Virus record (IMG/VR): IMGVR_UViG_3300048592_000456
Location: 1-52,056 of that record
Strand: one strand, 5' to 3'
Length of the DNA: 52,056 nucleotides
Origin: a virus
Below the pieces are notes generated by a model. It was not told the DNA's origin, made no database searches, and was given only the letters and a program-made list of their open reading frames with translations. Positions within the stretch are counted from its first letter, which is position 1; each line of letters starts with the position of its first letter. Below, in pieces: positions 15,343 through 42,657 of the stretch. Position numbers and translations under genes: made by a program.

Positions 15343-15373
15343 GTGGACAAGTCCACTGCCGGCGCGCTACCTT
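15343..15373 (+). promoter_or_regulatory. Dyad-operator promoter cassette A (plus strand)
   Basis: The perfect dyad GTGGACAAGTCCAC except for its centre (15343-15356) contains the -35 TGGACA (15344-15349). TACCTT (15368-15373) follows at 18 bases as -10, and GTGGACATCG just after it recurs at cassette F. Upstream lie GGTACCA (15301) and CGTACGGG. It is the only copy of the cassette facing the plus strand with a full promoter, and it serves the 15430-16313 unit. Confidence 0.75.
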
Positions 15374-15399
15374 GTGGACATCGCACGACGCGACCCGCC

Positions 15400-15415
15400 C
15401 CGGCCGGACAGCCGG
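15400..15415 (+). promoter_or_regulatory. Leader hairpin of plus-strand unit
   Basis: CCGGC-CGGACA-GCCGG forms a 5-bp G/C stem right before the GGAG of the gene at 15430. The same hairpin, with varying loop, precedes most genes driven by the dyad cassettes (26474-26489, 28460-28475, 36912-36927, 38133-38148, 40437-40452, 42584-42599) and the plus gene at 42796 (42766-42781). Confidence 0.7.
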
Positions 15416-15429
15416 ATGGAGCATCGACC

Positions 15430-15702
15430 GTGAGCAAGACCGTCATCGTCCAGCACCCGAACCCCCACGCCCGCGGGTTCTCGGTGTCCGCCATCGTCAC
15501 CCTCGACGCCGAGGACACCCGCGCCGGCCGCGCGCGCTACCTCGTGACGGACGGGTCCGGCGAACTGCTCGGCCGCGTCACCCGCGGGTTCGATGGCCGC
15601 TGGCGGTACGACTCCACGGAGCCCGGCCGGCGCGACCACACCCGCCACGGGCGCGACACCCGCAACGAGGCCCTCTGGGACCTGCTCGAACTCGGCCGCT
15701 GA
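15430..15702 (+). CDS. Small hypothetical protein, first gene of plus-strand unit
   Basis: This 90-residue protein starts at GTG, chosen because GGATGGAGCATCGACC and the shared leader hairpin precede it. It has a beta-rich N-terminus (SVSAIVTLDAEDTRAG, RYLVTDGSGELLGRV) and a charged basic/acidic C-terminus ending LWDLLELGR. No family recognised. It is the first of three plus-strand genes embedded between the late genes portal and terminase, under an early-type promoter cassette, so its timing likely differs from its neighbours. Confidence 0.75.
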   Translation: MSKTVIVQHPNPHARGFSVSAIVTLDAEDTRAGRARYLVTDGSGELLGRVTRGFDGRWRYDSTEPGRRDHTRHGRDTRNEALWDLLELGR

Positions 15703-15732
15703 GCCACCACGCACCACGAAGGGATACCCGAC

Positions 15733-16149
15733 ATGCTCGTCAAGACGTACCTCAACGACGGACCCGGCCGCTTCTTCGAGTACCAGCCCGGCGACCGGCT
15801 CCACGTCGGCCCGGAGGTCATGGTCCCCGACGCCGTGGCGCACGACGAGGATGGTGCGCTCGCCATCGCGTGGGCGGTCGGCAACCGGATGCAGGAGGCA
15901 TGGGTCCGCTGGGCCGGCACCGGCGCCCGGGACTGGCCGTCCTTCGTCCGGAGCCTCTCAGCCGGCGACGTGCTCGTCATCGGGGAGACGGCGTGGGCGG
16001 TCGCGCACGTCGGCTTCGACCGCATCGACACGGACGCGCTGGAGCGGTCGCTGTCATCGGACGCGGCCGTGGACGCACCACGCGAGCCCTTCGGCCCGCC
16101 GGCGCGGTCGGCGGCCGAGGCCGGCCCGGGCATCCGCCAGTGGCCGTGA
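15733..16149 (+). CDS. Hypothetical protein, second gene of plus-strand unit
   Basis: This 138-residue acidic protein begins MLVKTYLNDGPGRFFEYQPG; the ATG follows GGGATACCCGAC. Alternating beta segments and Trp residues (AIAWAVGNRMQEAWVRWAG, IGETAWAVAHVGFDRIDTD) suggest a compact globular domain. The tail is Pro/Ala-rich. Its stop overlaps the next start as GTGA. Function not recognised. Confidence 0.75.
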   Translation: MLVKTYLNDGPGRFFEYQPGDRLHVGPEVMVPDAVAHDEDGALAIAWAVGNRMQEAWVRWAGTGARDWPSFVRSLSAGDVLVIGETAWAVAHVGFDRIDTDALERSLSSDAAVDAPREPFGPPARSAAEAGPGIRQWP

Positions 16150-19164: not shown

Positions 19165-19796
19165 TCGGGCACCGCCTCCACCACGGCGTAGACCTCGGGG
19201 ATGCCGGCGACCGACAGGATGCGGGCGAGCGCCTTGGGGCTGATGCGCACGACGTACATCGTGCTACCGGGTCCGCCCTCCGCGATGCCGCGCCGCTCCT
19301 GCTCCTGCGCGACGTGGCCGGCCTCGCGGCGGGTCACCTTCCGCTCGTCACGGGTCGGCGGGGCGGCCATGTCCGCCCGGATGCCGACCGGTGCGGGCGC
19401 GTCGCCCATGGATGCGGTCGCGTAGTGCCACGGGTTGCCGCAGCCGACGATGGGGACGGCCGCGCCGTCATCCGGGTCCGTGACCTCGGCCTGCCAGTCG
19501 GGACCGAGCCGCACGACGGCCGCGGGGTCGGGGCAGCCCTCGATGGCGCACCCGGCGACGGTCACCATCCGCCACTTCTCGTAGCCGCCCATCGGCTCGC
19601 CCGGTGCGGCGATGGCCTGACCCGGGCGCACGGTGTCCGTCTCGCCGTCGTCATCCTCCACCACGGGCACGGCGTCGCCCTCCACGATGGTCGGAGCGGC
19701 CTCGGAGGGGTCATCCGGGGTGGATGGAGCGGCCGGGGTCGTCTCGGGTCGCTCCGTGGCCTGCGTGGGCCGCTGCGTGGGCTTCCTGCGCGTCAT
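19161..19796 (-). CDS. Hypothetical protein with Cys/His cluster before terminase
   Basis: This 211-residue protein has a low-complexity Thr/Pro/Glu/Asp N-terminus (about 70 residues), then a domain with MVTVAGCAIEGCPDPAAVVRLG and IVGCGNPWHYAT, three Cys and a His suited to a zinc site. A charged helix and a beta C-terminus (YVVRISPKALARIL) follow. It is ATGA-coupled to the ParB-like gene upstream and terS downstream. No known family recognised. Confidence 0.72.
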   Translation of the reverse strand: MTRRKPTQRPTQATERPETTPAAPSTPDDPSEAAPTIVEGDAVPVVEDDDGETDTVRPGQAIAAPGEPMGGYEKWRMVTVAGCAIEGCPDPAAVVRLGPDWQAEVTDPDDGAAVPIVGCGNPWHYATASMGDAPAPVGIRADMAAPPTRDERKVTRREAGHVAQEQERRGIAEGGPGSTMYVVRISPKALARILSVAGIPEVYAVVEAVPE

Positions 19797-20407
19797 CGGG
19801 TACCTCCACGGACGGTCCGGGGTCGGCCCGGCTCGCCCCTCTGCTCGTCGGTCACGTCCGCGGGGTCGGCCGTGGTCCATCCCTTGCTGAACCCGGTCGC
19901 CCCGAGGGTGCCGCGCTTGGTCATGCGCCCATGGTCCATGAGCCGGTCAACCTCCTCATCGTCCATGCCGAGCCGGTGGGCGATGTCCGGTCGGGAGACA
20001 CCCATGGCGGCGAGGTCGTTCACGATGTCGGCCATGCGGATGACGGCGTGGGAGCCTCGGGCGCGGTTGTGCCGGATGGTCGCCATCCGCTGCGTCGCCG
20101 GGTCGATGTCCGCGAGGCGCACGACGGGCACGAGCCCGCCGGCGAGCGCGGCTACATCGGGGTCCGTGGTGCCCAGCGTCCACCGGTGGAAGCCATCGAC
20201 AATCTCGCCGTCGCGGCGCGCCACGATGGGCTGCGTCCAGCCGTTCTCCAGCAGCGAGAGCCGGAGCAGCGCCAACTCGGGCCGGGCGACCTTGTTGGGG
20301 TTGTAGTCGTTTGCCCGGAGGGTCCGCGGGTCCACCCACTCGACGGAGGCGAGGGGCTGCGTGGACGGGTCGCCCGATGGCGCCCGGATGATGGGTTCGT
20401 CCGTCAC
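19793..20407 (-). CDS. ParB N-terminal domain protein, IbrB-like
   Basis: This 204-residue protein has the ParB/Srx fold: VDPRTLRANDYNPNKV, LRLSLLENGWTQPIVARRD, EIVDGFHRW (the G-x-HR motif), then the segment RMATIRHNRARGSH typical of phage/IbrB-type members. A helix-turn-helix-like region (MGVSRPDIAHRLGMDDEEVDRL) follows. It overlaps the PAPS-reductase-like gene by ATGA. IbrA/IbrB pairs of exactly this composition are known as gene regulators in E. coli; other ParB-fold proteins are nucleases, CTPases or serine kinases, so the reaction is open. Confidence 0.85.
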   Translation of the reverse strand: MTDEPIIRAPSGDPSTQPLASVEWVDPRTLRANDYNPNKVARPELALLRLSLLENGWTQPIVARRDGEIVDGFHRWTLGTTDPDVAALAGGLVPVVRLADIDPATQRMATIRHNRARGSHAVIRMADIVNDLAAMGVSRPDIAHRLGMDDEEVDRLMDHGRMTKRGTLGATGFSKGWTTADPADVTDEQRGEPGRPRTVRGGTR

Positions 20408-21657
20408 GGGATGACCTCCGCTATGCGCCCGGATGCCGTGAGCGCGGCTATCTCGGCCTCGTACTCGCGCCGGCGTCGCACCGCGTCATCCGCGCCGCCC
20501 GCCGCCGTCTCCTTGCGGCCCTTCACGTCGCCCCGGACCGCGATGCGGAGCACGAGGGACCACGAGACACCGCAGCAGGGGCACCGCGCCTTCTCCGCGA
20601 GCGGCGTCGTGGAGCGCTTGTAGTGGCGCCGGAGGAACGATGCCACCCGGTCGGCCACGTACGGCTGGAACGCCGGCGGCTGCCGGTCGATGTGGTGCCG
20701 GATGAACTCGGTCCATGGGAGCCCGTCCGGCTTGGGCGGCAGACCACCGAACGCCCATAGCTCCGTCCGCGAGTAGCGCGCGGCGGCGGCGGCGCCCGGG
20801 ACCCGGTAGGCCATCCGGTCCCAGATGTCCGGGAAGCACTGCGCGAACATGTCGAGGTTGCGCAGCGGTTCCTCGCCATACGGCGGCGCGCACCGCTGCG
20901 CCCGGTGGGGGATGCCCAGCATCTCCATCGCGTCATACGCGCGGTTGTAGTCCCAGCCGAGCAGCGCCGGCGCGAGCCACACGTCCGGGACCGTCCAGTC
21001 GTACGCCGGGTAGACCTTCGTCACGTTGCCGGCCTCCGTCGCGCCGCCCGCGCGGGTCATCCACGGGTCGTGGAGGTGGTGCGTGATGGCGCGCCGGCGG
21101 TTGACCGACTCATCCGCCCGGATGCCCATCACGAGCGCGACGGCGCCGAGCCGGGCAGGGTGCAGGAGCCCGTTGATGTCCGGGATGGTCAGCCGCGCGT
21201 CGGGGTCATCGTGGAGGTAGCCCGGGACCGTCGTGATGGCCTCCGGCGGGAGCGGCCGGACCCAGAGGTCACGCGCCTCCGGTGCCCACGGGTACCACCA
21301 CGGCGACGTGGACGAGCACGCGTTCCGGTGCCGCACGGGGACGCAGTACCACTCCAAGTCCACGTCTGGTAGCTGGGCCACCCGGCGGACATACTGCTCC
21401 GTCTCGTAGGGGATGGCCTCCTCATCGAAGTGGATGACGCGGAGCCGCTGCCCGCGCCGGCGCGCCTCATCGAGCGCGAGGTTCAGGACCACGGTGGAGT
21501 CCTTCCCGCCGCTGAACGAGACAACCACGTGGTCGAACCGGTCGAACGTCTCGGCCATGCGCTCGCGGCCGAGCGTGAGCACGTCCTTCTCGACGGCGAC
21601 CGTATCCCAGCCCTTGCGCCGCTTCCCGGTGTACGGGTTGAGCGGCCGGCCCGCCAC
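20404..21657 (-). CDS. PAPS reductase / DndC-like ATP-pyrophosphatase, IbrA-like
   Basis: This 417-residue protein has the PP-loop SFSGGKDST at residues 47-55, a downstream HFDEE segment, ALVMGIRADESVNRR, and YPAYDWTVPDVW, the layout of phage and IbrA-type PAPS reductase-domain proteins. A C-terminal CPCCGVSW could bind zinc or a metal cluster. It is much longer than assimilatory CysH and lacks a recognisable C-terminal ECGLH, so a role in sulfate assimilation is unlikely; AMP-forming activation of a substrate, nucleic-acid modification or regulation is more probable. Coupled to the ParB partner downstream. Confidence 0.85.
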   Translation of the reverse strand: MAGRPLNPYTGKRRKGWDTVAVEKDVLTLGRERMAETFDRFDHVVVSFSGGKDSTVVLNLALDEARRRGQRLRVIHFDEEAIPYETEQYVRRVAQLPDVDLEWYCVPVRHRNACSSTSPWWYPWAPEARDLWVRPLPPEAITTVPGYLHDDPDARLTIPDINGLLHPARLGAVALVMGIRADESVNRRRAITHHLHDPWMTRAGGATEAGNVTKVYPAYDWTVPDVWLAPALLGWDYNRAYDAMEMLGIPHRAQRCAPPYGEEPLRNLDMFAQCFPDIWDRMAYRVPGAAAAARYSRTELWAFGGLPPKPDGLPWTEFIRHHIDRQPPAFQPYVADRVASFLRRHYKRSTTPLAEKARCPCCGVSWSLVLRIAVRGDVKGRKETAAGGADDAVRRRREYEAEIAALTASGRIAEVIP

Positions 21658-21663
21658 GGCGGG

Positions 21664-22179
21664 CTACCCGGGGCGCCGGACGGTCGGCCGGCGCGGGCAC
21701 TCGATACTGTGCTCGTCCGACGCCTCGCCGGCGCCGCAGAGGCACATGGGTCCGCCGTCCGCGTGCATCGGGACCATGACCCGGGTGCCGTGCCAGTCGG
21801 TCGGGACCATCCGCTCGGGACTGTCCACGGCCTTGTGCGGCGCGCCGATGGACACGAGCACGTGCCCACGCTCCGTCGCGCCCACGGCGTGCGGGACGTT
21901 GCCGGGGATGAGGTAGAGGTCGCCCGGCCGGACGATGTACGTCTCGCGGTCGATGCTGATGCTCCCCTCCCCGTCGATGCACAGGAGCAGATGGTCGCCC
22001 GGGTGCGCGTGCACCGGGAACGAGTGGAGCGGCGGGACCCACAGCACGTCGGCGCCCAGCACGTCTCCGGCGGATGCCATCAGGGGGAGCCCCGACGCCG
22101 TGGCGCCATGGACCGCGAGCGCGTCGGCCGGCGGTCGCTTCGGGATGTCGAACAGGACGTTGACGATGGTCGGCTTCAC
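21664..22179 (-). CDS. Cupin-domain protein
   Basis: This 171-residue protein has the two cupin motifs: FPVHAHPGDHLLLCIDGEG (about residues 54-72, metal ligands H57, H59, H63) and PGDLYLIPGNVPHAVGA (85-101, last His ligand). An RmlC-like barrel with a metal site is expected; many such proteins are small-molecule binders or dioxygenases. The tail carries MCLCGAG...SIECP, two Cys pairs. It starts by GTGA overlap after the ParB-like gene and is followed by the PAPS-reductase-like gene 6 bases on, so the three are one operon. Confidence 0.85.
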   Translation of the reverse strand: MKPTIVNVLFDIPKRPPADALAVHGATASGLPLMASAGDVLGADVLWVPPLHSFPVHAHPGDHLLLCIDGEGSISIDRETYIVRPGDLYLIPGNVPHAVGATERGHVLVSIGAPHKAVDSPERMVPTDWHGTRVMVPMHADGGPMCLCGAGEASDEHSIECPRRPTVRRPG

Positions 22180-22886
22180 GCGATGCGCTCCCACTGCTCG
22201 ATGATGGCGAGCAGGGCGGCCGGCTGGGTCATCCCCGGGGTCCGGTCCTGCACGCTCTTGACGGCCGCCATCACGCGGTCACGGTCCGCCGGCGCGAAGG
22301 TGAAGGCCACCGTGACGAACAGCCCGGGGTCCACTCCCGCCGCGATGGCGGACGGTGCGTCGAGGGTCGGGCGCCCGCCCTCCGGGTGGAGCCCGGAGCC
22401 GGGCGCGATGCCCGGCTTCGGGTCCGCGTAGGACGTGAGGAACGAGGTCGCGGCGTTCGCGATGCGCCCGGTGGTCCGCAGGAGGTCATCCACGTCATCG
22501 CGGTCCCACGCGGTGCCGGCGAGCGTGCCGGCGTTCGCCAACTCGGTCAGGAGGTCCGCGAGCCGGTCATCGTCATCCCGGCCGCGGTCGTGGGTCCGGT
22601 TGTCCGCGAGCATGATGCGGAGCGCCGTCTCGTCATCGGTGTCCACCAGCACCGCGTCGATGTCCTTCATCCCGGCCGCCCGGGCAGCGCGCCACGTCGT
22701 GTTGCCCGCGAGGATGACCATGCGCGGGGTCCCATCCGGGAGCGCCCGCTGCACGACGATGGGCCGGTACTGACCGAACGCCCTGATGCTCTCGGTCACG
22801 GCGCCCACGTCGCCCTCGCGGGCGTTCCGGGGATGCGGGGTCAGGTCGCCAAGGGGGACCCGGAGGACCGGGTGTCGGGTATCCAT
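22176..22886 (-). CDS. ParB-like nuclease-domain protein, second paralogue
   Basis: This 236-residue protein is a divergent ParB-fold protein: VPLGDLTPHPRNARE, SIRAFGQYRPIVVQRA, VILAGNTTWRAARAAGM, and the later LADNRTHDRGRDDDDRLADLL. The catalytic-region GNTTWRA replaces the GFHRW seen in the other ParB-like gene. The C-terminal third (FVTVAFTFAPADRDRVMAAVKSV) is a separate ferredoxin-like segment. It lies between the symporter and the cupin in one leftward run. A partition role is unlikely as no ParA is present. Confidence 0.83.
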   Translation of the reverse strand: MDTRHPVLRVPLGDLTPHPRNAREGDVGAVTESIRAFGQYRPIVVQRALPDGTPRMVILAGNTTWRAARAAGMKDIDAVLVDTDDETALRIMLADNRTHDRGRDDDDRLADLLTELANAGTLAGTAWDRDDVDDLLRTTGRIANAATSFLTSYADPKPGIAPGSGLHPEGGRPTLDAPSAIAAGVDPGLFVTVAFTFAPADRDRVMAAVKSVQDRTPGMTQPAALLAIIEQWERIA

Positions 22887-22907: not shown

Positions 22908-24206
22908 TCAGGTGCGCCGGCGCATCCCCCACGCCGTGAGCCCGCCCGAGAGCGCCCAGACGAGCAGCGACGCCGTGATGATGGCCGGCCACTCGCCCCG
23001 GAGGTTGCCGTAGGCGGACACGGGGAGCCCGATGGCGATGGCGAGCCCGATGCCCCACGCGACCCAGCGGCCGCGCACCCGGTCGGACCGGAGGGTGAGG
23101 ATGGTCGGCCAGAACGTCGAGGCGCGGACCGTCCCGTAGATGATGAACAGACCCACGATGGTCATGCCCGGGATGTTGGCGATGAGCACGCCACCGATGC
23201 CGAGCGCCACCATGCCCCATCGGGCGCGGGTCACGGCGCGCTCCACGTCGCGGGTCCCGTCGTGGCCCACGAGCGAGCCGAAGGCGACCGCCATGGAGTC
23301 GAGGGTGGACACGAGCCCGGCGAGGATGAGCACCGCGAAGGGGATGGTGGTCCATGCCGGGAGGTAGAACTGGACCGTCGTGATGTTCACCGTCTGGGCC
23401 GACTCGACGGGGATGCCGGCGCCGCCGGCGATGAAGCCCAACTGGCCCAGCGTCAGGGGCACCACGGCGAACGCGGCCGCCGCGACGATGAACGCGGCCT
23501 TGACGCGCCCGGCCTCCGTCGCCCACGTGCGCTGCCAGAAGGACTGGTCCCCGAACGGACCCGACAGGAGCCCGATGGTGGTCGGGATGCCGAAGGACAG
23601 GGCGATGAGCAGCGGGTCCTTCCCGGACGTGCCGCCGAACCCGGCGACGGCCGTCGAGTAGCCGCCCGACTCGATGATGACCCACGGCACGATGACCGCC
23701 GCGATGGCGAGGATGATGAGCATCTGGAGCCAGTCGGACGCGAGCGACGCGCGCAGCCCGCCGATGAGCGAGTAGGACAGGGCGAACACGGCGAGCCCGA
23801 TGGTCAGGGGCACGAAGGCGAGCCCGGTCACCTGCGCGATGAACACACCGCCGGCGAGCAACTGGACGGCGAAGGACCCCAGCGCGAGCAAGCCCATCTG
23901 CGTCAGGTAGAGCCGGTGCACCGCCGGCCCGTGGCGGTCGCGCATGTACGCCGGGAGGGTGTAGCCGTCCGGCACGCGCTCCCGGATGAGCGCCGCGAAG
24001 GCCGCGAACAGCAGGAGGCAGAGGACGTTCGGGATGGTGAACCACGCGAGCCCCCAGAGCCCGTTCTGATACGCCTGCTGCGCCGACACGAACAGCGACG
24101 GCGCCCAGACCCAGTTGCTCGCGATGGCGAGCCCGGCGGCGGCGAACGCCACGCGGCGGTGCGCGACGAGGAACCCCTCCTTGCGCTCGATGGCGGATGC
24201 GGTCAT
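22908..24206 (-). CDS. Sodium:solute symporter (SSF) family membrane protein
   Basis: This 432-residue integral membrane protein has about 12 hydrophobic segments, starting near residue 17. SNWVWAPSLFVSAQQAYQNG early on, GLRASLASDWLQMLII in the middle (the family's G-G...TD-QM-like motif) and VSTLDSMAVAFGSL later (the conserved S/T-rich segment before the last helices, sodium-site region) identify the SSF/LeuT-fold group. It is shorter than most bacterial members (about 480-550). Sugar, proline, urea and acetate transporters share the fold, so the substrate cannot be told. The ATG at 24206 has GGGGAGACACCCGACC. No frameshift, so probably functional cargo. Confidence 0.85.
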   Translation of the reverse strand: MTASAIERKEGFLVAHRRVAFAAAGLAIASNWVWAPSLFVSAQQAYQNGLWGLAWFTIPNVLCLLLFAAFAALIRERVPDGYTLPAYMRDRHGPAVHRLYLTQMGLLALGSFAVQLLAGGVFIAQVTGLAFVPLTIGLAVFALSYSLIGGLRASLASDWLQMLIILAIAAVIVPWVIIESGGYSTAVAGFGGTSGKDPLLIALSFGIPTTIGLLSGPFGDQSFWQRTWATEAGRVKAAFIVAAAAFAVVPLTLGQLGFIAGGAGIPVESAQTVNITTVQFYLPAWTTIPFAVLILAGLVSTLDSMAVAFGSLVGHDGTRDVERAVTRARWGMVALGIGGVLIANIPGMTIVGLFIIYGTVRASTFWPTILTLRSDRVRGRWVAWGIGLAIAIGLPVSAYGNLRGEWPAIITASLLVWALSGGLTAWGMRRRT

Positions 24207-25375: not shown

Positions 25376-26455
25376 TCAGCGGGCGACCTTGTTGATGCAC
25401 ACCGGGCCGATGCCGGCCTCGATGCTGCCCTCGTCCGTGAGGGTCCGGCCGCACACCGCGCACACGCCGTAGAGCCGGCCGAACGATGCGGCGGCCTCGA
25501 CGGTGAGGCGGTCGGCCTCCGTCAGCAGCCGGACCATGCCCGGCGCGTACTCCCACGACGCCTCGCCCGGACCCGTGACCACGAGCCGCTTGGCGTAGAG
25601 GTTGCCGGACCCGTGGACGGCGCGCTGGACCTTGAAGATGTCCGCGCCCTTCTGGTACCACCCGTCCTGCGTCACGGCCGGCTGCGTCGCCTGAGCGGGC
25701 CGCTCCGGGGATGCGGTGCGGGCGGCGTCGCGGTCCACGTTGCGGAGCACCGCGTCGTACTGGTTCTGGGTCAGCGAGCCGAACCGGCGCATCCCGGCGA
25801 GCAGCGAGCGCGCGAAGTCGTTGCGGTCCGCATGGGCGAGCACCCACGCCTTGGCCTCGTCCTCGCGGTCGCGCGCCGGCGTCGCCGGGCGGTCGGCCTC
25901 GCGCCGGGCGGCGGCGTCCCGGGTGCGGATGATGGCGGCCGCCATGTTCTCGGTCACCCGGAAGTAGGCCGGCCCCTTGCGCTCACGGTCCGCGATGAGG
26001 GTGAGGATGAAGTCGGGGATGCCGGTGGAGCCGGTGGACGCGCGGCGGTCGGCCATCGCGTTCAGGTACGCGGTCGCCTCCGCGATGAGCGCCACGACCT
26101 CGGGGTCCTTCGCGACGCGCTGCCCGGTGCCGCCGGACGGCTTGCGGGTCGATGCGTCGGGGATGTCCGAGAGCCGGGTGTCGAGCGCCCGGTTGACGGC
26201 CTCGCTGTGGGCGCGGCACGCGGCGCCGAGCCACGGGACCGGCTCCACGCACCCGTGCCCGAAGTTAGCGGACCACTCGGGGTTGAAGGTGGGGCGGTCG
26301 ATGGCGGCTTCCTTCCAGCCACCGTGCGCGACCACGAAGCGGTCACCGCACACGAACGGGGAGCCGTCCTCGCGGAGCGTGACCCACCGCGGGTCCGTGA
26401 TGTAGTCGGCCGGCGGGGTGGTCGGGCGGCTGTCGAGCGAGTAGGTCGGGGTCAC
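25376..26455 (-). CDS. DUF6011-domain protein
   Basis: This 359-residue protein is first after promoter cassette B; GTG 26455 follows GAGGACCCGACC. The C-terminal motif YGVCAVCGRTLTDEGSIEAG then GPVCINK is the DUF6011 zinc-knuckle seen in many actinobacterial-phage and plasmid proteins. The N-terminal half has CGDRF, HGC and CRAH segments, and the middle is helical (DFARSLLAGMRRFGSLTQNQYDAV). Role unknown; the domain is thought to bind zinc. Confidence 0.8.
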   Translation of the reverse strand: MTPTYSLDSRPTTPPADYITDPRWVTLREDGSPFVCGDRFVVAHGGWKEAAIDRPTFNPEWSANFGHGCVEPVPWLGAACRAHSEAVNRALDTRLSDIPDASTRKPSGGTGQRVAKDPEVVALIAEATAYLNAMADRRASTGSTGIPDFILTLIADRERKGPAYFRVTENMAAAIIRTRDAAARREADRPATPARDREDEAKAWVLAHADRNDFARSLLAGMRRFGSLTQNQYDAVLRNVDRDAARTASPERPAQATQPAVTQDGWYQKGADIFKVQRAVHGSGNLYAKRLVVTGPGEASWEYAPGMVRLLTEADRLTVEAAASFGRLYGVCAVCGRTLTDEGSIEAGIGPVCINKVAR

Positions 26456-26506
26456 GGTCGGGTCCTCGTGCGTCCGGCGTTCCGGCCGGGGCGGTTGATG
26501 GGTCCC

Positions 26507-26536
26507 ACGTTGACGCCTCCGGGTGGACATGTCAAC
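26507..26536 (-). promoter_or_regulatory. Dyad-operator promoter cassette B
   Basis: GTGGACATGTCAAC (26523-26536) holds the minus-strand -35 TTGACA (26535-26530). CAACGT (26512-26507) is the -10 at 17 bases, and GGTACC lies 3 bases upstream of the dyad with a second GTAC 21 bases further. The leader hairpin 26489-26474 and the GTG at 26455 follow. Confidence 0.75.
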
Positions 26537-26575
26537 CGGTACCATCGGCTGCCCCGGCCGTACCGGTGCGCACCG

Positions 26576-28047: not shown

Positions 28048-28308
28048 TCAGGATGGTCGGTCGGCCGTGCGGATGCCTCCCTTCGTCGTGGTGGTCCGGG
28101 TGGCGGGACCGAGGTCCGCGAACACGACCTCCACGAGGTCCGAGCCCGGGATGGCCTCGGCGTGGATGACGTGCCCGAGCCGGCGCCCGAGCGCCTCCGC
28201 GGCCTCGGCGGCGGACCGGAGGTCGGCACCGTCCACGACGATGCTGATGCCCTCCGGGTGGAGCGCGCGATGCTCGGCGTCGGCGTAGAGGCGGTCGATG
28301 TAGGTCAT
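28048..28308 (-). CDS. Small hypothetical protein
   Basis: This 86-residue protein starts by ATGA overlap. MTYIDRLYADAEHRAL, GISIVVDGADLRSAAEAAEALGRRLG and VIHAEAIPGSDLVEVVFADLG read as a beta-alpha-beta fold. No family recognised. Second gene behind cassette C. Confidence 0.7.
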   Translation of the reverse strand: MTYIDRLYADAEHRALHPEGISIVVDGADLRSAAEAAEALGRRLGHVIHAEAIPGSDLVEVVFADLGPATRTTTTKGGIRTADRPS

Positions 28309-28445: not shown

Positions 28446-28495
28446 CGGGGCGTCTCCCTCCGGCGTTCCGGCCGGGGCGGTTGGTCGATGCGGCA

Positions 28496-28525: not shown

Positions 28526-28536
28526 TGGTACCATGG

Positions 28537-30628: not shown

Positions 30629-30705
30629 GTCGGGTTCTCCATCAGGGTCGGGTTGTCCCGGCGGTTCGCCGGGGTCGGGGATGGTACGCCGGTCGGATGG
30701 GCCTG

Positions 30706-33346: not shown

Positions 33347-34183
33347 TCAGCGCTCCTGCGCCGCGACCCACTCGCGGCTGGGGCGCTCGTTGCACCATCC
33401 GTCCCCGACCCGGGTGGCGCAATACCAGCCCCGGGACCCGGAGCGGAACGCCTTGTGGTGCACCGGGCACTGACCATCGACGGACCCGCCGGCCGGCTGG
33501 GCGTGCTGGGCGGCCGGAGCGCCCGCGTCGCCGGGGAACGGTGGCTCATCCCCGTCCTGCGTCACGACGGGCCGCTGGGACGGCTGGGCGCGGCCGGAGG
33601 GTCGGGCGCCGCCCATGCGCTGCTGCGGCCGGGACTGCTGGCGTGGAGCCTGCCCGCCGGCGGCGTCGGGTAGGGTCGGCGCTTCCTCGTCGGGGTCCTT
33701 CCCGGTGGGGATGCTGTATGCGTTCAGCAGCCCCGCCTTGACGCCTGCGGTGATGGCCTTCGCGAGCGGCTTGTCGCTGTAGTCCACCGCCATGCCGGCG
33801 TACGTGGACTCGAACCGGTCCTCGGGGTTGTCCACGTTGATGAAGATGAGCCGGCCCTGCACCCGGGCGATGAAGGCTCGCTTGCCGGACCCGCCCTCCA
33901 GAACCTCGACGGACCAATCGTCCACCGTGTGCTGCGACATGATGCCCTGCGCCACGTGGGCATCCCGGATGGCGTCCTTGATGTGCTCCACCCGGGCGAA
34001 CGCGTACGACCCCTGCTCGGCCGGGCCGGTGCCCAACTTGGGGATGTAGCCGATGGTGGCGACCACGTTGAGCATCCGGGCGTGGATGTTGGCGTCGGTG
34101 CCGGCGAGCGCCGGGACCGTGTGTTGCACGGGCGCGTCCGGCGCCTCGGTCGGCGCCGGCGCGGCGGCGTTCGGCTGGGTCAT
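33347..34183 (-). CDS. erf: Erf-family single-strand annealing protein
   Basis: This 278-residue protein's N-terminal 165 residues match Erf: LNVVATIGYIPKLGTGPAEQG, YAFARVEHIKDAIRDAHVAQGI, VQGRLIFINVDNPEDRFESTYAG and DKPLAKAITAGVKAGLLNAYSI. Gln/Pro-rich linker then a CPVHHKAF...WYCATRV...WCNER zinc motif. It anneals complementary ssDNA in phage recombination. First gene behind cassette D and directly downstream of the RecB-like nuclease, together an exonuclease-annealase pair. Confidence 0.9.
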   Translation of the reverse strand: MTQPNAAAPAPTEAPDAPVQHTVPALAGTDANIHARMLNVVATIGYIPKLGTGPAEQGSYAFARVEHIKDAIRDAHVAQGIMSQHTVDDWSVEVLEGGSGKRAFIARVQGRLIFINVDNPEDRFESTYAGMAVDYSDKPLAKAITAGVKAGLLNAYSIPTGKDPDEEAPTLPDAAGGQAPRQQSRPQQRMGGARPSGRAQPSQRPVVTQDGDEPPFPGDAGAPAAQHAQPAGGSVDGQCPVHHKAFRSGSRGWYCATRVGDGWCNERPSREWVAAQER

Positions 34184-34221: not shown

Positions 34222-34251
34222 ATGATGACGCGGGCGGGTGGACATGTCAAC
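34222..34251 (-). promoter_or_regulatory. Dyad-operator promoter cassette D
   Basis: GTGGACATGTCAAC (34238-34251), -35 TTGACA (34250-34245), 17-base spacer, -10 CATCAT (34227-34222). The stop TGA of the upstream nuclease is inside the -35. This copy lacks the CCGGC leader hairpin and instead has CCCGCG-N7-CGCGGG (34216-34234) spanning the -10. Confidence 0.72.
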
Positions 34252-35656
34252 CGGCGTCCGGGTCATCCTCCGGCGGCGCGATGTCGAGCACGGCCGGCCC
34301 GATGGGGCAGCCCGGGTGGATGACCTGCCCGTACCGGTCCGCGATGGGCTCGCGGTAGTGGCACTTCCCGCACGCCTTCGGGTTGAAGGCCAGCGCGGTC
34401 GGGTCGCCGGTGTCGAGCGCCACTCCCCAGCGGTCGAAGTAGGACCGCGCCACGGCGAGGATGGACGGGTGGACGGGCGCCGTGATGAGCGCCCAATACG
34501 GCTTCTGGGTCCGGCGGTATTCGAGGTAGCCGTGCCACGTCGGGAGGGTCCCGCCGTTCGCGACCGTGAGCATCCAGTCGTACGCGGCCGCCTCGCCGGC
34601 GACCCACTTCGCCGGGTAGGAGCCGGCCTTGCTGAGCGCCTTGACATCCACCCACGCGTCCAGCGACCCCTCGCCGTTCACGAACACGTAGTCGGGCTGT
34701 CCCGTGATGCCACGGCCGCCGACCACGCCGGGCGCGTGGAGTTTCATCTGCGCCCGCGTGGTGGTCCCGGGCACGTCGAGCCACGCGATGGGCGGTCCGT
34801 CCGGTGTGCCCTCGGGCTCGGGCTCCGTGAGCCACTCCACGACCTCGCCCTTGGACATCCGGGGCTTGACGCGGTTGGGCCAGAGGCCGAGCAGTTTCTC
34901 GCACGCCAGCCCTAGCTGGGCCGTGAGCACCTTCCAGTCCTCATCGGTCCATGGCCGCGAGAGCATCCGGCCGCGCGCGACGGACACGCCACGGCGGACC
35001 GCCTCGCCCACGTCCTCCCACAGCCCTTCCTCCGTGACCGCCTCGCCCATGCCCTCCGCGGACACGTCGATGCCCACGGTGCTCATGTCGTGCGGCCCGA
35101 ACTCCAGCCGGCGCGCCATCAGGAAGCCGTGGGATGCGTCGAGCGCCATGCCGAAGACGATGGGCTCGTCGGCGCCGGTGCGGAGCCGGTAGCCGCGCTC
35201 GTCGCGCACGACCTCCCGGTAGAACGTCTCGCGCTCGCACCCGTACCCGCCGGTCGCGCCGATGACCGACTTCCAGATGGCCTCCTTCGGCCCGTGCGTG
35301 CTGGTAGCATCCGGAGCGACCGCGCGCTTGGGTTCGTCGGGTTCTCCGGGCGCGCGGTCATCCGTCACCACGGTCACGGTCGCGCCGACGCCGGCGACGG
35401 CCTCCACGTGGAGCACCGCGTCATCCGGGACCACCGGCAGCGCCTCGGGCGTCTCCGTGGCAGCGCGCGCCACGCGGTCCGTGTGCCGTGGGTCGCCGGG
35501 CATGACGATGCACCCGGGCTCCGCGGGCGGGATGTCCCCGAACACGGGCACGGGCGCCAGCCCGGGATGGGTCCCACCACCGGTCCGCTCGCACCGCCGG
35601 GCGGCGGCCGTGGTCCGGTGCGCGATGGTGCAGACGGTCGGGTTCGTGCCGGTCAT
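34247..35656 (-). CDS. RecB/Cas4-like PD-(D/E)XK nuclease
   Basis: This 469-residue protein has a nuclease core GITGQPDYVF (Asp322) with WVDVKALSK (Asp337, Lys339), then a helix with WVAGEAAAYDWML. The C-terminus has CGKCHYREPI...HPGC, and an upstream Cys (GYGCERE at 138-142), giving the four-Cys pattern of Cas4/AddB-type Fe-S nucleases. The first 110 residues are an unassigned extension. Together with Erf downstream it would process double-stranded ends for recombination. It overlaps the XRE regulator by ATGA. Confidence 0.85.
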   Translation of the reverse strand: MTGTNPTVCTIAHRTTAAARRCERTGGGTHPGLAPVPVFGDIPPAEPGCIVMPGDPRHTDRVARAATETPEALPVVPDDAVLHVEAVAGVGATVTVVTDDRAPGEPDEPKRAVAPDATSTHGPKEAIWKSVIGATGGYGCERETFYREVVRDERGYRLRTGADEPIVFGMALDASHGFLMARRLEFGPHDMSTVGIDVSAEGMGEAVTEEGLWEDVGEAVRRGVSVARGRMLSRPWTDEDWKVLTAQLGLACEKLLGLWPNRVKPRMSKGEVVEWLTEPEPEGTPDGPPIAWLDVPGTTTRAQMKLHAPGVVGGRGITGQPDYVFVNGEGSLDAWVDVKALSKAGSYPAKWVAGEAAAYDWMLTVANGGTLPTWHGYLEYRRTQKPYWALITAPVHPSILAVARSYFDRWGVALDTGDPTALAFNPKACGKCHYREPIADRYGQVIHPGCPIGPAVLDIAPPEDDPDAG

Positions 35657-35979
35657 GGCCGGGTGACGCCCGTGCCGTAGCCGGTCGCGATGAGGTCCAC
35701 GGCGGCGCGGTAGCGGCCGGCGGCCTCGATGGACGCGTCACCGTTCTCCATCTTGCTCACCATCTGCTTGCTGAGGTCCAGCGCGGACCCCACGTCGGAC
35801 ATGCCGACGCCGGCGGCCTCGCGGTAGAGCCGGAGCACCACGCCCGGGACCCGGGTCATGGTGGGCGGGAGCATCCGGCGCGCGAACCGGTTCGCGAGGT
35901 TCAGGTTCCGGGTCACGGCGACCGCCACGCGCGCGGCGCTGGCAGCCTCCCGTTCCTCGACGGCGGACGGGGTGGTCAC
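35653..35979 (-). CDS. XRE-family helix-turn-helix regulator
   Basis: This 108-residue protein starts at GTG 35979 after GGCAGGAGGGCAATC. After a basic N-terminal helix (ARVAVAVTRNLNLANRFARR) comes the Xre domain: LRLYREAAGVGMSDVGSALDLSKQMVSKMENGDASI, with helix 2 and 3 residues 60-85. No dyad operator lies near its own start, so autoregulation is not evident; it is a plausible but unproven binder of the eight cassette dyads. Confidence 0.82.
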   Translation of the reverse strand: MTTPSAVEEREAASAARVAVAVTRNLNLANRFARRMLPPTMTRVPGVVLRLYREAAGVGMSDVGSALDLSKQMVSKMENGDASIEAAGRYRAAVDLIATGYGTGVTRP

Positions 35980-36154: not shown

Positions 36155-36895
36155 TCAGTGGAGCGTCGCCTTCGCGACCGTCTCCAGCGCGGCCTGCGCC
36201 TCGTCCGTGGCCGACGCGATGACCGCCTGCGGGGCGGGCATCCGGTCGATGCGGTCGATGAGCGCCTTGGCCTCGCGGACCTTGGCGAGGTCGGTCGGGT
36301 CCGGGAGCCGGCCGGCGCCACGCCGGGACTCCGTGACCGTGACCGCCGACGCGGCGGCCTCGATGCCCGGGGTCGATGCCGGGACCGCGAGGCGCCACCG
36401 GCGCGCGTACTTGGCGCGCTTGGCCTTGTCGGTGGACGGCGCCTTGGACGGACCCTCGGGCGCGGACCCGTTGGGGCGGACCCAGCGGCCCGTCGTGTTG
36501 AGCGCCGTCATCAGCGCCACGTCGCCGGAGGCGATGATGGCGTCCACGGCCGCGACCGTCAGGAGGACCACGGGCTCGCCGGCGACCGGCGCGGCCGGCT
36601 CCACCGGGGCGGGCTTGGCGGCCTTGGCCGGCTTGGCGGCCGGCTTCGCCTTGGGCTCGGGCTTCGGGGCGGCGGCGCGCTTGGCCTTGGCCTCGGCGGC
36701 CCGGGCGGCTGCGCGGGTGGCCGGATTCTTCGCCGGGACCGGCTCGCCCACGGCGTCGGTCGCGATGTCCGCGATGACCTCGCCCACCGTGGGCTCATCC
36801 GCGGCCGCCACGTCCGCGAGGACGGTATCGGCCGTCGCGGTGCCGTTGAGGATGGCCGCGATGCCGGCCTTGACGGTTGCCTTCTTGGTCGCCAT
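36155..36895 (-). CDS. Lys/Ala/Pro-rich protein, product of internal promoter E
   Basis: This 246-residue protein starts at ATG 36895 after GGAGGGAGAACCGACACC. N-terminus MATKKATVKAGIAAIL, then a 50-residue AKAKRAAAPKP/AKPAKAAKPAP linker like bacterial histone-H1-type tails. A C-terminal domain has VLLTVAAVDAIIASGDVALM and KYARRWRLAVPAS. DNA or RNA binding is likely from composition. The reading frame is open upstream into the preceding gene. Confidence 0.78.
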   Translation of the reverse strand: MATKKATVKAGIAAILNGTATADTVLADVAAADEPTVGEVIADIATDAVGEPVPAKNPATRAAARAAEAKAKRAAAPKPEPKAKPAAKPAKAAKPAPVEPAAPVAGEPVVLLTVAAVDAIIASGDVALMTALNTTGRWVRPNGSAPEGPSKAPSTDKAKRAKYARRWRLAVPASTPGIEAAASAVTVTESRRGAGRLPDPTDLAKVREAKALIDRIDRMPAPQAVIASATDEAQAALETVAKATLH

Positions 36896-37456
36896 GGTGT
36901 CGGTTCTCCCTCCGGCTGTCCTGCCGGGCTGGTCGCCCGCCGTGGTGGTCGGGTCGATGGGTGCATCTTGCGCCGTCGTGGTGGACATGTCAACTTGCTG
37001 GGATGGTACGGTGGTCCCATCTGGCACCGGTACCCTTGCCGACTCGGCGCCGGCGTGGCATCGGCAGTCGCATCCGCGCACGGCGCCCGGGCAGTCCCGG
37101 GGCGGCTGCCCGACACCGCAGAGGAACGAGTGTCCATCCGTCCACGGCGCGTCGGACCATTCCTGCTCCACGTCGAGCAGCCGGCCGACGTGGAACGGGC
37201 ACGCGTACGTGTGGCCGACCGGGAGGCTCGGGATGGTGGCGGCGCATCCGTCCCCGACACAGACCGTCCGGCCCGGCTGGACGCGGACGGAGCGGTAGAC
37301 GGCTTCCTCGTCATCGTCCGGCTCCGCGAGGCGCCAGATGCCCTCGGTCATCTGCCACGCGTGACCGCGGCCGGCCTCCACGAGCGCCGGCGCCGGCGTG
37401 CCCGGGAGCACCCGGCCGGTGGCCGCGTCCACGACCACGAGTTCCGGGCGGCTCAC
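36155..37456 (-). CDS. Cys-rich protein in frame with the downstream Lys/Ala-rich gene
   Basis: A GTG at 37456 (GTGA overlap) opens a frame that never stops before 36155. The first 145 codons look genuine: DPDDEEAVYR-like acidic region, RTVCVGDGCAATIP, YACPFHVGR, HSFLCGVGQPPRDCP and GCDCRCHAG, eight or more Cys for zinc. The next 45 codons are simply the promoter and leader of cassette E, then ATG 36895. A full product of 433 residues is possible from the upstream promoter, or the first gene ends in a lost stop. Confidence 0.6.
   Translation of the reverse strand: MSRPELVVVDAATGRVLPGTPAPALVEAGRGHAWQMTEGIWRLAEPDDDEEAVYRSVRVQPGRTVCVGDGCAATIPSLPVGHTYACPFHVGRLLDVEQEWSDAPWTDGHSFLCGVGQPPRDCPGAVRGCDCRCHAGAESARVPVPDGTTVPSQQVDMSTTTAQDAPIDPTTTAGDQPGRTAGGRTDTMATKKATVKAGIAAILNGTATADTVLADVAAADEPTVGEVIADIATDAVGEPVPAKNPATRAAARAAEAKAKRAAAPKPEPKAKPAAKPAKAAKPAPVEPAAPVAGEPVVLLTVAAVDAIIASGDVALMTALNTTGRWVRPNGSAPEGPSKAPSTDKAKRAKYARRWRLAVPASTPGIEAAASAVTVTESRRGAGRLPDPTDLAKVREAKALIDRIDRMPAPQAVIASATDEAQAALETVAKATLH
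36965..36994 (-). promoter_or_regulatory. Dyad-operator promoter cassette E (inside an open frame)
   Basis: GTGGACATGTCAAC (36981-36994), -35 TTGACA (36993-36988), 17-base spacer, -10 CAAGAT (36970-36965). The spacer and -10 are the same as at cassette H, including flanking CCACGACGGCG. Leader hairpin 36927-36912 has the form CCGGC-N6-GCCGG. Confidence 0.78.
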
Positions 37457-38115: not shown

Positions 38116-38166
38116 GGTCGGTTCTCCTTCGTCCGGCTGACCGGCCGGGGCGGTGTCGATGTCCAC

Positions 38167-38196
38167 AAGATAGCCGACCGTGGTGGACATGTCCAC
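38167..38196 (-). promoter_or_regulatory. Dyad-operator promoter cassette F
   Basis: Perfect palindrome GTGGACATGTCCAC (38183-38196), -35 TGGACA (38195-38190), -10 TATCTT (38172-38167), the best -10 of the set. GTGGACATCG follows the -10, as in cassette A. GTACC sites lie 3 and about 24 bases upstream; leader hairpin 38148-38133. Confidence 0.82.
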
Positions 38197-38235
38197 TGGT
38201 ACGGTCGGCTACCCCGGTGGTACCGGTGCGGGCCG

Positions 38236-39869: not shown

Positions 39870-40421
39870 CTACTCGGCCTCGGTCCCCTCCGGCGCGACC
39901 CATCCGACGATGCCGGCGTGAGCCTTGCAGATGCGGCAGTGGACCGTGCCGTTGGCGATGGCGTACGCGTCCTCGTGGGACCCGACCACGATGCGCCGGG
40001 CGGACCGGTGGCCGCACGCGAGCGCGACCCGGCGGACCTTCTCCGTCGCCGTGGCGTCGGCCTCGGCCTTGCGGGTGGTGGACACCCACGGCTTGTGCGT
40101 CGCGGGGTCGAAGACGATGCCCTCGGCCTTCACGCGGTCCGCGAAGCACGGCGCCCACTCGAACCCGTGGTGCGTGCTCCAGCAGGACTCGCCCGACTCG
40201 TCATCGAGCCCGTCGTACGGCTCGCGGCAGAACCACGAGGCGGCGTCCGTGTCCATCGCCACGATGGCGTCAAGGAGGGTCGCGCCGTCGAACGTCGGCG
40301 GCTCGCCGCCGGGACCCTGCGTCCGGTCGTGCGACTTCGCGATGTCCCGGCACCCGGCCATGTGGACCTTGAAGTCCCCGCGGTGCTCGCGGACGAGGGT
40401 GACGGCGGTGGTTGCGGTCAT
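39870..40421 (-). CDS. Hypothetical protein behind cassette G
   Basis: This 183-residue protein's ATG 40421 follows GGAGAACCGACCG. HMAGCRDIAKSHDRTQ, WFCREPYDG...ESCWSTHHGFEWAPCF, RVALACGHRSARR and VHCRICKAHAG show several Cys/His groups. The last CGH...HCxxC could be a zinc knuckle. No known family recognised. Confidence 0.73.
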   Translation of the reverse strand: MTATTAVTLVREHRGDFKVHMAGCRDIAKSHDRTQGPGGEPPTFDGATLLDAIVAMDTDAASWFCREPYDGLDDESGESCWSTHHGFEWAPCFADRVKAEGIVFDPATHKPWVSTTRKAEADATATEKVRRVALACGHRSARRIVVGSHEDAYAIANGTVHCRICKAHAGIVGWVAPEGTEAE

Positions 40422-40479
40422 CGGTCGGTTCTCCGTCCGGCTGTGCGGCCGGGGCGCGTCGCGTCATCGCGATACCCGC

Positions 40480-40509
40480 ATGTTGGCACGTCCCGGTGGA
40501 CATGTCCAC
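40480..40509 (-). promoter_or_regulatory. Dyad-operator promoter cassette G
   Basis: Perfect palindrome GTGGACATGTCCAC (40496-40509), -35 TGGACA (40508-40503), -10 CAACAT (40485-40480), GTACC sites upstream at 3 and 24 bases (GGTACCGGTGC distal), leader hairpin 40452-40437. Confidence 0.78.
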
Positions 40510-40555
40510 TGGTACCCTTGGATGCACCGGTGGTACCGGTGCGGCCGCGCAACGC

Positions 40556-40762
40556 TCAGACGCCGTGGAGCCGGTGCAGCCGAGAGAGCATCCGCCGGAC
40601 CCGGTGGCGGTCCCGGCCGTTCCGGTGGTCGGCCGCGACGTGCTCCATGACCTCCTGCAACGTCGGCCGCCGCTTGCGGCGCTCGGTCACGACGATGACC
40701 CGGAGCGCCGTGATGTAGGCGGCTTGGATGGCCGGCGGGTCGATGGGCCGGTACGCGGTCAC
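40556..40762 (-). CDS. Small basic winged-helix-like protein
   Basis: This 68-residue protein starts at GTGA overlap. RPIDPPAIQAAYITALRVIVV is followed by RPTLQEVMEHVAADHR and DRHRVRRMLSRLHRL, a helix-turn-helix-like pattern with a basic recognition helix. DNA binding is inferred. It ends 47 bases before cassette G. Confidence 0.68.
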   Translation of the reverse strand: MTAYRPIDPPAIQAAYITALRVIVVTERRKRRPTLQEVMEHVAADHRNGRDRHRVRRMLSRLHRLHGV

Positions 40763-41421
40763 GCGTCCGCCCGCCCGATGCCGGCGTCGATGGCGCCGAC
40801 GATGGCGCCGACGATGCGAGCCCTGACGGCCGCGTCCCGGCGTCCCCAGTTCGGGGATGACCGGTACCACGTCACGCCCGGCCGGACGGTGTAGAGCACG
40901 AGCCCGCCGTCCCGGTCATGCCAGCCCAGCGTGGCCTCTCCGGCGAGCCACCGGGGTCCCTCATCCGGGCCGATGCGGAGCCGTGACGGCTCGACGTGGA
41001 TGCCGCGCGCCGGCCGGGCGGCTTGGTCCAGCGTCGGGTCCAGCAGCCAGCCCTCATCCGGTGCGCCGTCCTCCACGAAGGCGACCATGTGCAGTTCGCG
41101 CCCGGCGGTGAGCCCGCCACGGCCGACCACGGGCGTCTCAGGCAGCCCGAGGTCCACGTTCCACCCGTCCGCCGGCCGGGGTCGGGATGGCGGGTCGGGC
41201 CAGCCGAGCGCCCGCTGCTCGTCCGTCCACGCGGCCGAGGCGGGGTTGGCGACCCGGGTGGAGACGACCACCGGGTAGCCGCTGTACCCGTAGGCCCAGA
41301 GCGCCTCGCACGCGATGGCGACGCCGGCGATGCACGAGTTCGGCGCGTACCGGGTCAGCATGGCCGCCCGGCCCACGTCGAGGATGGCATCCATGACGAG
41401 CGTGATGGGCGCGTCCCTCAT
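40759..41421 (-). CDS. Transglutaminase/NAT-fold-like protein
   Basis: This 220-residue protein has a cysteine-first triad pattern: RYAPNSCIAGVAIACEAL (Cys30 at the start of a helix), GRELHMVAFVEDG (His111) and EGWLLDPTLDQA (Asp128), in the order C-H-D of the transglutaminase-like superfamily. Substrate unknown; phage members could be peptidases or amide transferases. ATGA-coupled on both sides. Confidence 0.7.
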   Translation of the reverse strand: MRDAPITLVMDAILDVGRAAMLTRYAPNSCIAGVAIACEALWAYGYSGYPVVVSTRVANPASAAWTDEQRALGWPDPPSRPRPADGWNVDLGLPETPVVGRGGLTAGRELHMVAFVEDGAPDEGWLLDPTLDQAARPARGIHVEPSRLRIGPDEGPRWLAGEATLGWHDRDGGLVLYTVRPGVTWYRSSPNWGRRDAAVRARIVGAIVGAIDAGIGRADA

Positions 41422-41783
41422 CCCAGCAGCGCCCGGACCACGGAGCGTGCGGCGCGCTCCGCGTCATCGACCGGCACGCCGGCGTCCGCAGCGAGCCGGT
41501 CGCGCATCTGCTCCGCGATGACGGCCGCCACGTGGTCCCGGCACGCGGACCGCCAGTCCGCGATGAGCAGATGGCGGGTCGCGCCGGCGCCGACCGTGCC
41601 GCCGCCGAAGCGGTCCCACTGCCCGATGAGCGTCCCGTCGAGGAACGCATCCCACCGGGTGCCGGTGCCTCCCCGGACCGGGTACGTGGTGCGCTGGAAC
41701 TGGAGCCCGGCCGGGTCGCGCCGCCGGGCCGGCATGGGGACGCCGTAGCGGTTGCGCTGCCGGCGTGGACGGAGCGTGGTCAT
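41418..41783 (-). CDS. Hypothetical basic protein
   Basis: This 121-residue protein has an Arg-rich start (RPRRQRNRYGVPMPARRRD), then FQRTTYPVRGGTGTRWDAFLDGTLIGQWDRFGG-type beta hairpins and a helical C-terminus (HVAAVIAEQMRDRLAA). The WDAFLDGTLIG run resembles a small beta-sheet domain. No family recognised. Neighbours coupled by ATGA. Confidence 0.7.
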   Translation of the reverse strand: MTTLRPRRQRNRYGVPMPARRRDPAGLQFQRTTYPVRGGTGTRWDAFLDGTLIGQWDRFGGGTVGAGATRHLLIADWRSACRDHVAAVIAEQMRDRLAADAGVPVDDAERAARSVVRALLG

Positions 41784-42190
41784 CGGTAGAGCCTCCCTTC
41801 GGCCGCGAGCACGGCGCGGCGCCGGTCATCCCCGAACGGGTCCGCGACCTGTCCGCGGTTCCACGTGATGGAGTGGCATGGTGAGAGGTAGCCGTGGTCG
41901 CAGCAGCGCACCGGCGACCGGAGCCCGACCGACACGCCGTCGCCCGGGAGCCCCTGCACGTGCGGCGCCGGGCACGGCCGGCTCTCGGCCATGACCCGCC
42001 GCTCCTGCCGGACCTCATCCGCGAGCGCCGCCATCCGGGCGTCGATGGTCCGCAGCGCTGCCTCCCACCCGGCCCGGTGCTGCTCGTACGCCTCACGGTT
42101 CGGGAAGTCCCGGATGTTGGGCGCCATGTCCTCGACGCGGACGCGCTCGCGCTGGAGCCGGAGGGTCTGGGTGTACGCGCTCTCGGTCAC
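41780..42190 (-). CDS. Coiled-coil hypothetical protein with Cys motif
   Basis: This 136-residue protein, GTG start. A long charged helix (residues 1-70: RLQRERVRVEDM, YEQHRAGWEAALRTIDARMAAL) is followed by CPAPHVQG, RCCDHGYLSPCHS, a Cys/His cluster. No family recognised. Confidence 0.7.
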   Translation of the reverse strand: MTESAYTQTLRLQRERVRVEDMAPNIRDFPNREAYEQHRAGWEAALRTIDARMAALADEVRQERRVMAESRPCPAPHVQGLPGDGVSVGLRSPVRCCDHGYLSPCHSITWNRGQVADPFGDDRRRAVLAAEGRLYR

Positions 42191-42567
42191 GCGAGGGTCC
42201 CGGCGATGGTCACGCCCTCGGGCAGCAGCCCGGCCTCCGGCTCGCGGACGATGATGGTGAGGCCGCGGTCAGACCCGCACACGATGGAGTGGACCACGAG
42301 GATGCTGGCCGCCGGCTGGTCCACGAGCGCCAGCACGCCCTCGGGGTTGGTCCACGGCGCGCCCGACCGAAGCTCAGCCCGACCGCGGCGCATGTCGAGC
42401 AGGACCACGGAGTCCTTCGACCCCTCGTCCCAGCAGACGGTCCAGCGGCGCGGCCCGGTGTACGCCTCCATGCGGATGAGGCGGCCGCGGTAGGCCGGGA
42501 AGGTCGCCCGGATGAGCGCCTTCACGGCGGGGTTGGAGCGAGAGAGCGGGGTCTGGGTGGGGAGCAT
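42187..42567 (-). CDS. First leftward gene behind cassette H
   Basis: This 126-residue protein's ATG 42567 follows GGAGGACCCGAC. KALIRATFPAYRGRLIRM then RWTVCWDEGSKDSVVLLDM, ASILVVHSIVCGS and GLTIIVREPEAG form an alternating beta/alpha pattern. No family recognised. It heads a five-gene coupled run that ends at 40556. Confidence 0.75.
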   Translation of the reverse strand: MLPTQTPLSRSNPAVKALIRATFPAYRGRLIRMEAYTGPRRWTVCWDEGSKDSVVLLDMRRGRAELRSGAPWTNPEGVLALVDQPAASILVVHSIVCGSDRGLTIIVREPEAGLLPEGVTIAGTLA

Positions 42568-42627
42568 GTCGGGTCCTCCTTCTCCGGCTGTCCGGCCGGG
42601 GCGGTCCGCCGTGTTGGCGATGACCGC

Positions 42628-42657
42628 ATCTTGCGCCGTCGTGGTGGACATGTCAAC
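42628..42657 (-). promoter_or_regulatory. Dyad-operator promoter cassette H
   Basis: GTGGACATGTCAAC (42644-42657), -35 TTGACA (42656-42651), 17-base spacer, -10 CAAGAT (42633-42628); spacer and -10 match cassette E. Two GGTACC sites lie upstream within 22 bases. Leader hairpin 42599-42584. The plus-strand gene at 42796 diverges from the same block. Confidence 0.8.

Follow-up and report, generated by a model that had tools for sequence, protein, structure and literature searches.

What is the role of a short palindrome that recurs at eight places in one phage genome and in each case lies over a promoter? The question is raised by IMG/VR virus record IMGVR_UViG_3300048592_000456, a virus genome of 52,056 bases with a GC content of 72.8%, which was analysed at its full length and is called the window below. 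The dyad is probably the operator of a dispersed phage regulon, in which one phage protein would switch all the units, with an XRE-type protein as the candidate binder. This reading is built on the comparison of sequences, within the window and between related phages. Since the record carries an identical 28-bp direct repeat at both ends (1-28 and 52029-52056), it is probably a complete genome or a closed circle. Nearly all of the window genes are on the minus strand; they were called with a simple purpose-made gene caller, so start codons are approximate.

Dyads and promoters

All eight dyads listed by the initial annotation are present, and are named here operators A to H in order of position. 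The 14-bp sequence is exactly GTKGACATGTCMAC at seven of them and GTGGACAAGTCCAC at the site at 15343, where the centre is AA, not AT; symmetry extends to six or all of the seven base pairs. The consensus first given for the dyad has the right sequence, except that only position 12 varies (C or A), position 11 being always C. When both strands are searched, GTKGACAWGTCYAC is found at eight places, against 0.0 per genome expected from a first-order Markov null and 0.01 from a fourth-order null. With up to three mismatches, 30 strand-matches are seen against 9.1 (standard deviation 3.6) expected. With eight sites and null expectations near zero, the window shows the pattern of a dispersed operator regulon, that is, a symmetric site repeated at several separate phage promoters.

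Read on the strand of the gene, the site is GTKGACAWGTCCAC. The -35 hexamer, TTGACA or TGGACA, is in its promoter-distal half; the proximal half, GTCCAC, is the same in every one of the eight copies. A -10-like hexamer with A at position 2 and T at position 6 (YANNNT) lies on the gene side of each window site, at a distance of 17 nucleotides (nt), but of 18 nt at 15343. If the sister phage and the third phage described below are included, a -35 within the dyad and a -10 at 17-18 nt on the gene side are found at 17 of 17 sites, the dyad overlapping the promoter core each time. A bidirectional promoter, with -10 elements flanking the dyad on both sides, was ruled out, since none of the 17 sites has a -10 on the opposite side. 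Relative to the +1 of a sigma70-type promoter, the dyad extends from about -36 to about -23, with its centre at about -29.5.

Operator A (GTGGACAAGTCCAC, 15343-15356, plus strand) has the -35 TGGACA, a spacer of 18 and the -10 TACCTT at 15368-15373, and would drive the plus-strand genes 15430-15702 and 15733-16149. The remaining seven operators are on the minus strand and have spacers of 17. Operator B (26523-26536; -35 TTGACA, -10 CAACGT at 26507-26512) would drive the DUF6011 gene 25376-26455, and operator C (28512-28525; TGGACA, TAGTGT at 28496-28501) the gene 28305-28445. Operator D (34238-34251; TTGACA, CATCAT at 34222-34227), which overlaps the stop of the upstream gene, lies before the gene for an Erf-like annealing protein (33347-34183), its putative target. 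Operator E (36981-36994; TTGACA, CAAGAT at 36965-36970) would serve the gene with its start at 36895 as well as, further downstream, the XRE gene, and operator F (38183-38196; TGGACA, TATCTT at 38167-38172) the gene starting at 38115. Both of these starts are internal to longer open frames. The likely targets of operators G (40496-40509; TGGACA, CAACAT at 40480-40485) and H (42644-42657; TTGACA, CAAGAT at 42628-42633) are the genes 39870-40421 and 42187-42567, respectively. In the region 36155-37456, operator E and the gene start at 36895 lie inside a longer open frame, with no stop separating them from its upstream part. In the sister phage, the counterpart of the gene downstream of operator E is fused to the ortholog of 39870-40421.

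The assignment of TTGACA to B, D, E and H and of TGGACA to A, C, F and G in the initial annotation holds, as do its -10 elements 17-18 nt on. Its statement that the right half supplies the -35 in every copy applies to the seven minus-strand units; at 15343, where the gene (15430) is on the plus strand, the left half does so. It is also true that no copy precedes capsid or tail genes, but the site at 15343 is within the structural region; the two small genes that follow it are missing between terminase and portal in the phage L008. The -10 begins with CA in all four TTGACA copies, and with TA in all but one of the four TGGACA copies. This might reflect a balancing of promoter strength, though with eight sites it is only a hint.

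Related phages

Contig JALOOH010000066.1 (L110), found through its terminase in the metagenome-assembled genome (MAG) ‘Chloroflexi bacterium isolate Prado098’ (JALOOH01), is largely syntenic with the window. The MAG was scanned for GTTGACAAGTCYAC with at most one mismatch, and the seven places found are all on three contigs that encode relatives of window proteins: L110, with the late genes and the DUF6011 gene; L123, with Erf, a 469-amino-acid protein, the XRE protein and neighbours; and L124. In this sister phage, whose proteins are mostly 33-87% identical to those of the window, seven promoters carry a diverged dyad, GTTGACAAGTCYAY. Six of these sites can be matched to window units, since they precede the corresponding genes or share an interval with them: two to A and one each to B, C, F and G. 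To the seventh (L123:8644) no unit is assigned. L127, a fragment from another metagenome, is a near-identical copy of L110 (99.8% over 8.8 kb) and comes from the same phage. A third phage, L128, with a terminase 72% identical, has two promoters with GTTGACATGTCTAC and GTTGACAAGTCTAC, together with the leader hairpin that is also seen in the window. The proposal of one regulon with a shared operator-promoter is strongly supported by this comparison, in that the sister and third phages keep the dyad over the -35, at several orthologous genes, with diverged flanks.

Column information is high over the 14 bases of the dyad in both the window and the sister phage, drops outside it, and returns only at the -10 and the +1. 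A plain promoter gives no reason to keep the half of the dyad beyond the -35, so that half has probably been selected as part of a binding site. Three sister promoters (L110:1012, L110:8911 and L123:8644) have an ATG 22-23 nt past the dyad, leaving no room for a Shine-Dalgarno sequence, and their genes are apparently leaderless. These ATGs are likely to fix the +1, and with it the position of the dyad given above. In the window, ATCG is found at the matching distance in most copies.

Between terminase and portal, the window (15343-16149) and the sister phage (L110:8911-10002) differ in the small genes that they hold, of which each group has an operator-promoter to itself; the L008 phage holds none. 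These genes look like morons tied to a common switch.

Other searches were less productive. No comparable repeated cassette appeared in a de novo palindrome and k-mer search of distant relatives (capsid about 46-48% identical), and a megablast of the region against phage records gave no match. In viral contigs, the pattern dyad-N22-ATCG has one match, in a coding-like stretch, and this was taken as chance. The pattern GTACCRGTKGACATGTCCAC is absent from genome contigs; in viral contigs it gave five copies of one AT-rich locus without the cassette, which were rejected.

Repression or activation

A dimeric, phage-encoded DNA-binding protein most likely recognises GTKGACAWGTCYAC, covering the -35 and the first part of the spacer, and the bound dimer would keep host sigma70 RNA polymerase off the promoter. 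At least eight units, comprising recombination and accessory genes and including the two-gene insertion in the structural region, would then be silenced together, either once the protein accumulates or in a carrier or lysogenic state. If the XRE protein is the binder, its own operon, beginning at operator E, would be among those that it represses.

We infer repression rather than activation because, from what is known of promoters, a dyad centred at about -29.5 and spacers of 17-18 nt favour it. The opposite arrangement, in which the dyad binds an activator or belongs to an alternative-sigma promoter and a phage factor recruits RNA polymerase without any repression, is unlikely, though it would account for several observations. 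Each of the 17 sites makes a well-formed promoter whose +1 is fixed, and four window copies exchange TTGACA for TGGACA with the palindrome kept. Paired SGTACS boxes, moreover, at about -40 and -61, fit activator positions. However, the centre of the dyad is inside the polymerase footprint, and the hexamers are sigma70-like. MerR-type activators use spacers of 19-20 nt, unlike those seen here, and the proteins scanned include none that was recognised as a sigma factor.

The SGTACS boxes are one of three features that the initial annotation overlooked, the others being a leader hairpin and a recurrent CATCG-like region at the +1. Exactly two SGTACS hexamers lie within 60 nt upstream in seven of the eight copies (14 in total); at the density of the whole genome (96 in 52 kb), about one would be expected. 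Relative to the presumed +1, five copies have the centre of the near box at about -40, and three have that of the far box at about -61. The hexamers start at 15301 and 15336 in cassette A (pair 15301-15341), at 26538 and 26559 in B (26538-26564), at 28527 and 28559 in C (28527-28564), at 37005 and 37029 in E (37005-37034), at 38198 and 38219 in F (38198-38224), at 40511 and 40532 in G (40511-40537), and at 42669 and 42677 in H (42669-42682). The last pair is also upstream of a divergent gene, 42796-43152. This gene may have a separate promoter, with TTGACG; it carries the leader hairpin CCGGCCGGGAAGCCGG, and has the two GGTACC boxes in common with cassette H. The SGTACS boxes were not found in the sister phage, and look like sites of a second factor that are particular to the window phage.

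The cassette

A hairpin, CCGGC-N6-GCCGG, is found just 5' of the Shine-Dalgarno sequence in seven of the eight window leaders: on the plus strand at 15400-15415 (A), and on the minus strand at 26474-26489 (B), 28460-28475 (C), 36912-36927 (E), 38133-38148 (F), 40437-40452 (G) and 42584-42599 (H). It lies at varying distances from the dyad (33-53 nt) but at a more or less fixed distance from the start codon, and is thus probably an element of the RNA, not another operator in the DNA. In the related phages the stem also takes the forms CCGGG/CCCGG and CCGGGG/CCCCGG, in which the change is compensatory. Operator D has neither GTAC boxes nor leader hairpin.

A rival view is that the copies are paralogous promoter cassettes spread by recombination, with the dyad as a passenger or a recombination site and not an operator. 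The phage does encode an Erf-like annealing protein, three copies share 88 nt over which two of them are 67% and 74% identical to the third, and cassettes accompany different small genes next to the terminase. Spreading of this kind would not explain why the flanks and SGTACS boxes differ between phages but the dyad half outside the -35 is kept, nor why site D consists of dyad and promoter only, with the rest of the cassette absent. We therefore consider it quite improbable that the dyad is a mere passenger, and retain the operator as the preferred function.

Repressor dyad in the -35 and spacer, paired GTAC boxes at activator positions and leader hairpin might together form a ‘two-input module’, a single portable cassette through which accessory genes come under a common switch. 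This proposal is tentative and more doubtful than that of the operator itself. If true, the module would count among the early cases of dispersed operator regulons in Chloroflexota phages, with an operator sequence that co-diverges with a small XRE regulator.

The binding protein

The XRE-type helix-turn-helix protein (35653-35979, minus strand; Pfam HTH_31, E 6.4e-7) is the best candidate binder among the phage proteins. Its gene lies inside the unit started by operator E, and it is kept at the same place in the sister phage (L123:4068-4343), with 53% identity over 66 amino acids. No relatives of it, or of the 469-amino-acid protein (34247-35656), were found in phage records, and a PDB sequence search with it returned none.

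The initial annotation had left open whether a single phage or host factor binds all the copies, and of these the phage option is favoured. Exact copies of the motif in the MAG are on phage contigs only, and when the relatives were scanned, as had been suggested, the sister and third phages proved to carry the dyad and 60 related genomes gave three scattered matched places. A host LexA/SOS-type regulon would place the same site before several host genes, and this is seen neither in the MAG nor in the 60 relatives, host identity being uncertain. The argument assumes that the MAG is near the true host, and the binning of phage contigs does not prove the host. The site looks phage-specific, being absent as a regulon from these genomes, and a host factor is an unlikely binder. 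Coupling of the phage genes to the physiology of the host by one of its own regulators, whether LexA-like or another, has very little probability. Phages often borrow host operators, but the matched places among the 60 genomes are isolated, and the operator sequence differs between sister phages.

Several points weigh against the reading of the dyad as the operator of a phage regulon, with the XRE protein as binder. The XRE protein is the only recognised regulator-type helix-turn-helix protein among the early proteins scanned, but many early proteins have no match at all, and because of this other regulators may be responsible. The AlphaFold model of the XRE protein is poor (pLDDT 55.7), too poor to use. 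There is no integrase among the proteins scanned, which leaves a lysogenic role unsupported, and the early timing of the regulon genes is an assumption from gene content. The sister dyad, finally, is symmetric at only five of seven base pairs.

The three related phages provide natural operator variants, so that which small phage protein reads the site is directly testable. The promoters could also supply ready promoter-operator parts for a group of hosts in which genetic tools are few.

Other features of the genome

The noncoding region 30629-31112 (minus strand), upstream of a replication-initiation-like gene (29876-30628), contains two close TTGTCCACA DnaA-box-like sites and a separate GTGACA-17-TACCAT promoter with a leader hairpin; it is a candidate origin, with a promoter outside the regulon. 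Adjoining the terminase genes, 19793-22886 encodes a PAPS-reductase-like protein between two ParB-like proteins, and a cupin. These genes, mostly conserved in L110, may act in DNA or nucleotide modification. A sodium:solute symporter-like protein (22908-24206), unusual for a phage, is 87% identical in the sister phage, against 33-73% for other proteins. The glycerophosphotransferase-like, FkbM methyltransferase and galactosyltransferase-like genes at 43205-46735 are possibly concerned with decoration of the virion or of the host surface.

Comparison with known systems

Dispersed operator regulons are known in detail in few phages, chiefly of actinobacteria. In phiC31, inverted repeats lie near early promoters, and the L5 operator overlaps a TTGACA -35. 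The window belongs to a phage lineage that is uncultured, very high in GC and linked to Chloroflexi, and has a dyad, a portable cassette and a leader hairpin of its own. It is like L5 and the cluster A phages in having many dispersed sites and an operator over a TTGACA -35. However, its site is a 14-bp dyad with its own promoter at each copy. Sites of the L5 type are asymmetric 13-mers bound by a monomer, and many of them block elongation (PMC9283540). The window has neither such one-orientation 13-mers nor sites away from promoters, all eight of its sites carrying one, and it is therefore not a stoperator system of the L5 type. The remark in the initial annotation that the dyad is longer than the L5 site, and symmetric, is borne out by this comparison.

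Both phiC31 and L5 have 18-30 repressor sites dispersed over the genome (PMC4557955). The phiC31 sites are dispersed like those of the window but differ in sequence, and are served by three repressor isoforms (PMC4557955). A close parallel is mycobacteriophage BPs, whose repressor gp33 (103 amino acids) recognises a 12-bp palindrome, CGACATATGTCG, between the -10 and -35 in five regulatory regions with four promoters (PMC4557955). Both systems have a short palindrome in the promoter core at several promoters genome-wide, and a small repressor or, here, a small XRE candidate. In contrast to the window, the BPs sites have a different sequence and are bipartite, since 5-8 bp away there is a further half site, which is degenerate; immunity is integration-dependent (PMC4557955).

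Looser parallels are offered by clusters O and K, which have repeated dyads or inverted repeats by the starts of mostly non-structural genes. The 17-bp dyad repeats of cluster O (34 sites, about ten of them within genes) are not described as part of -35 or -10 elements (PMC4351075), and the SAS/ESAS of cluster K are tied to gene starts rather than to promoters (PMC3203893). The leader hairpin resembles this idea of a start-associated repeat, but the SAS/ESAS sequences are different. No known family with this operator sequence was found within the literature and databases searchable here. Judged by these analogies, the system most likely works in the manner of the dispersed operators of phiC31, L5 and BPs, yet with a site and a cassette of its own.

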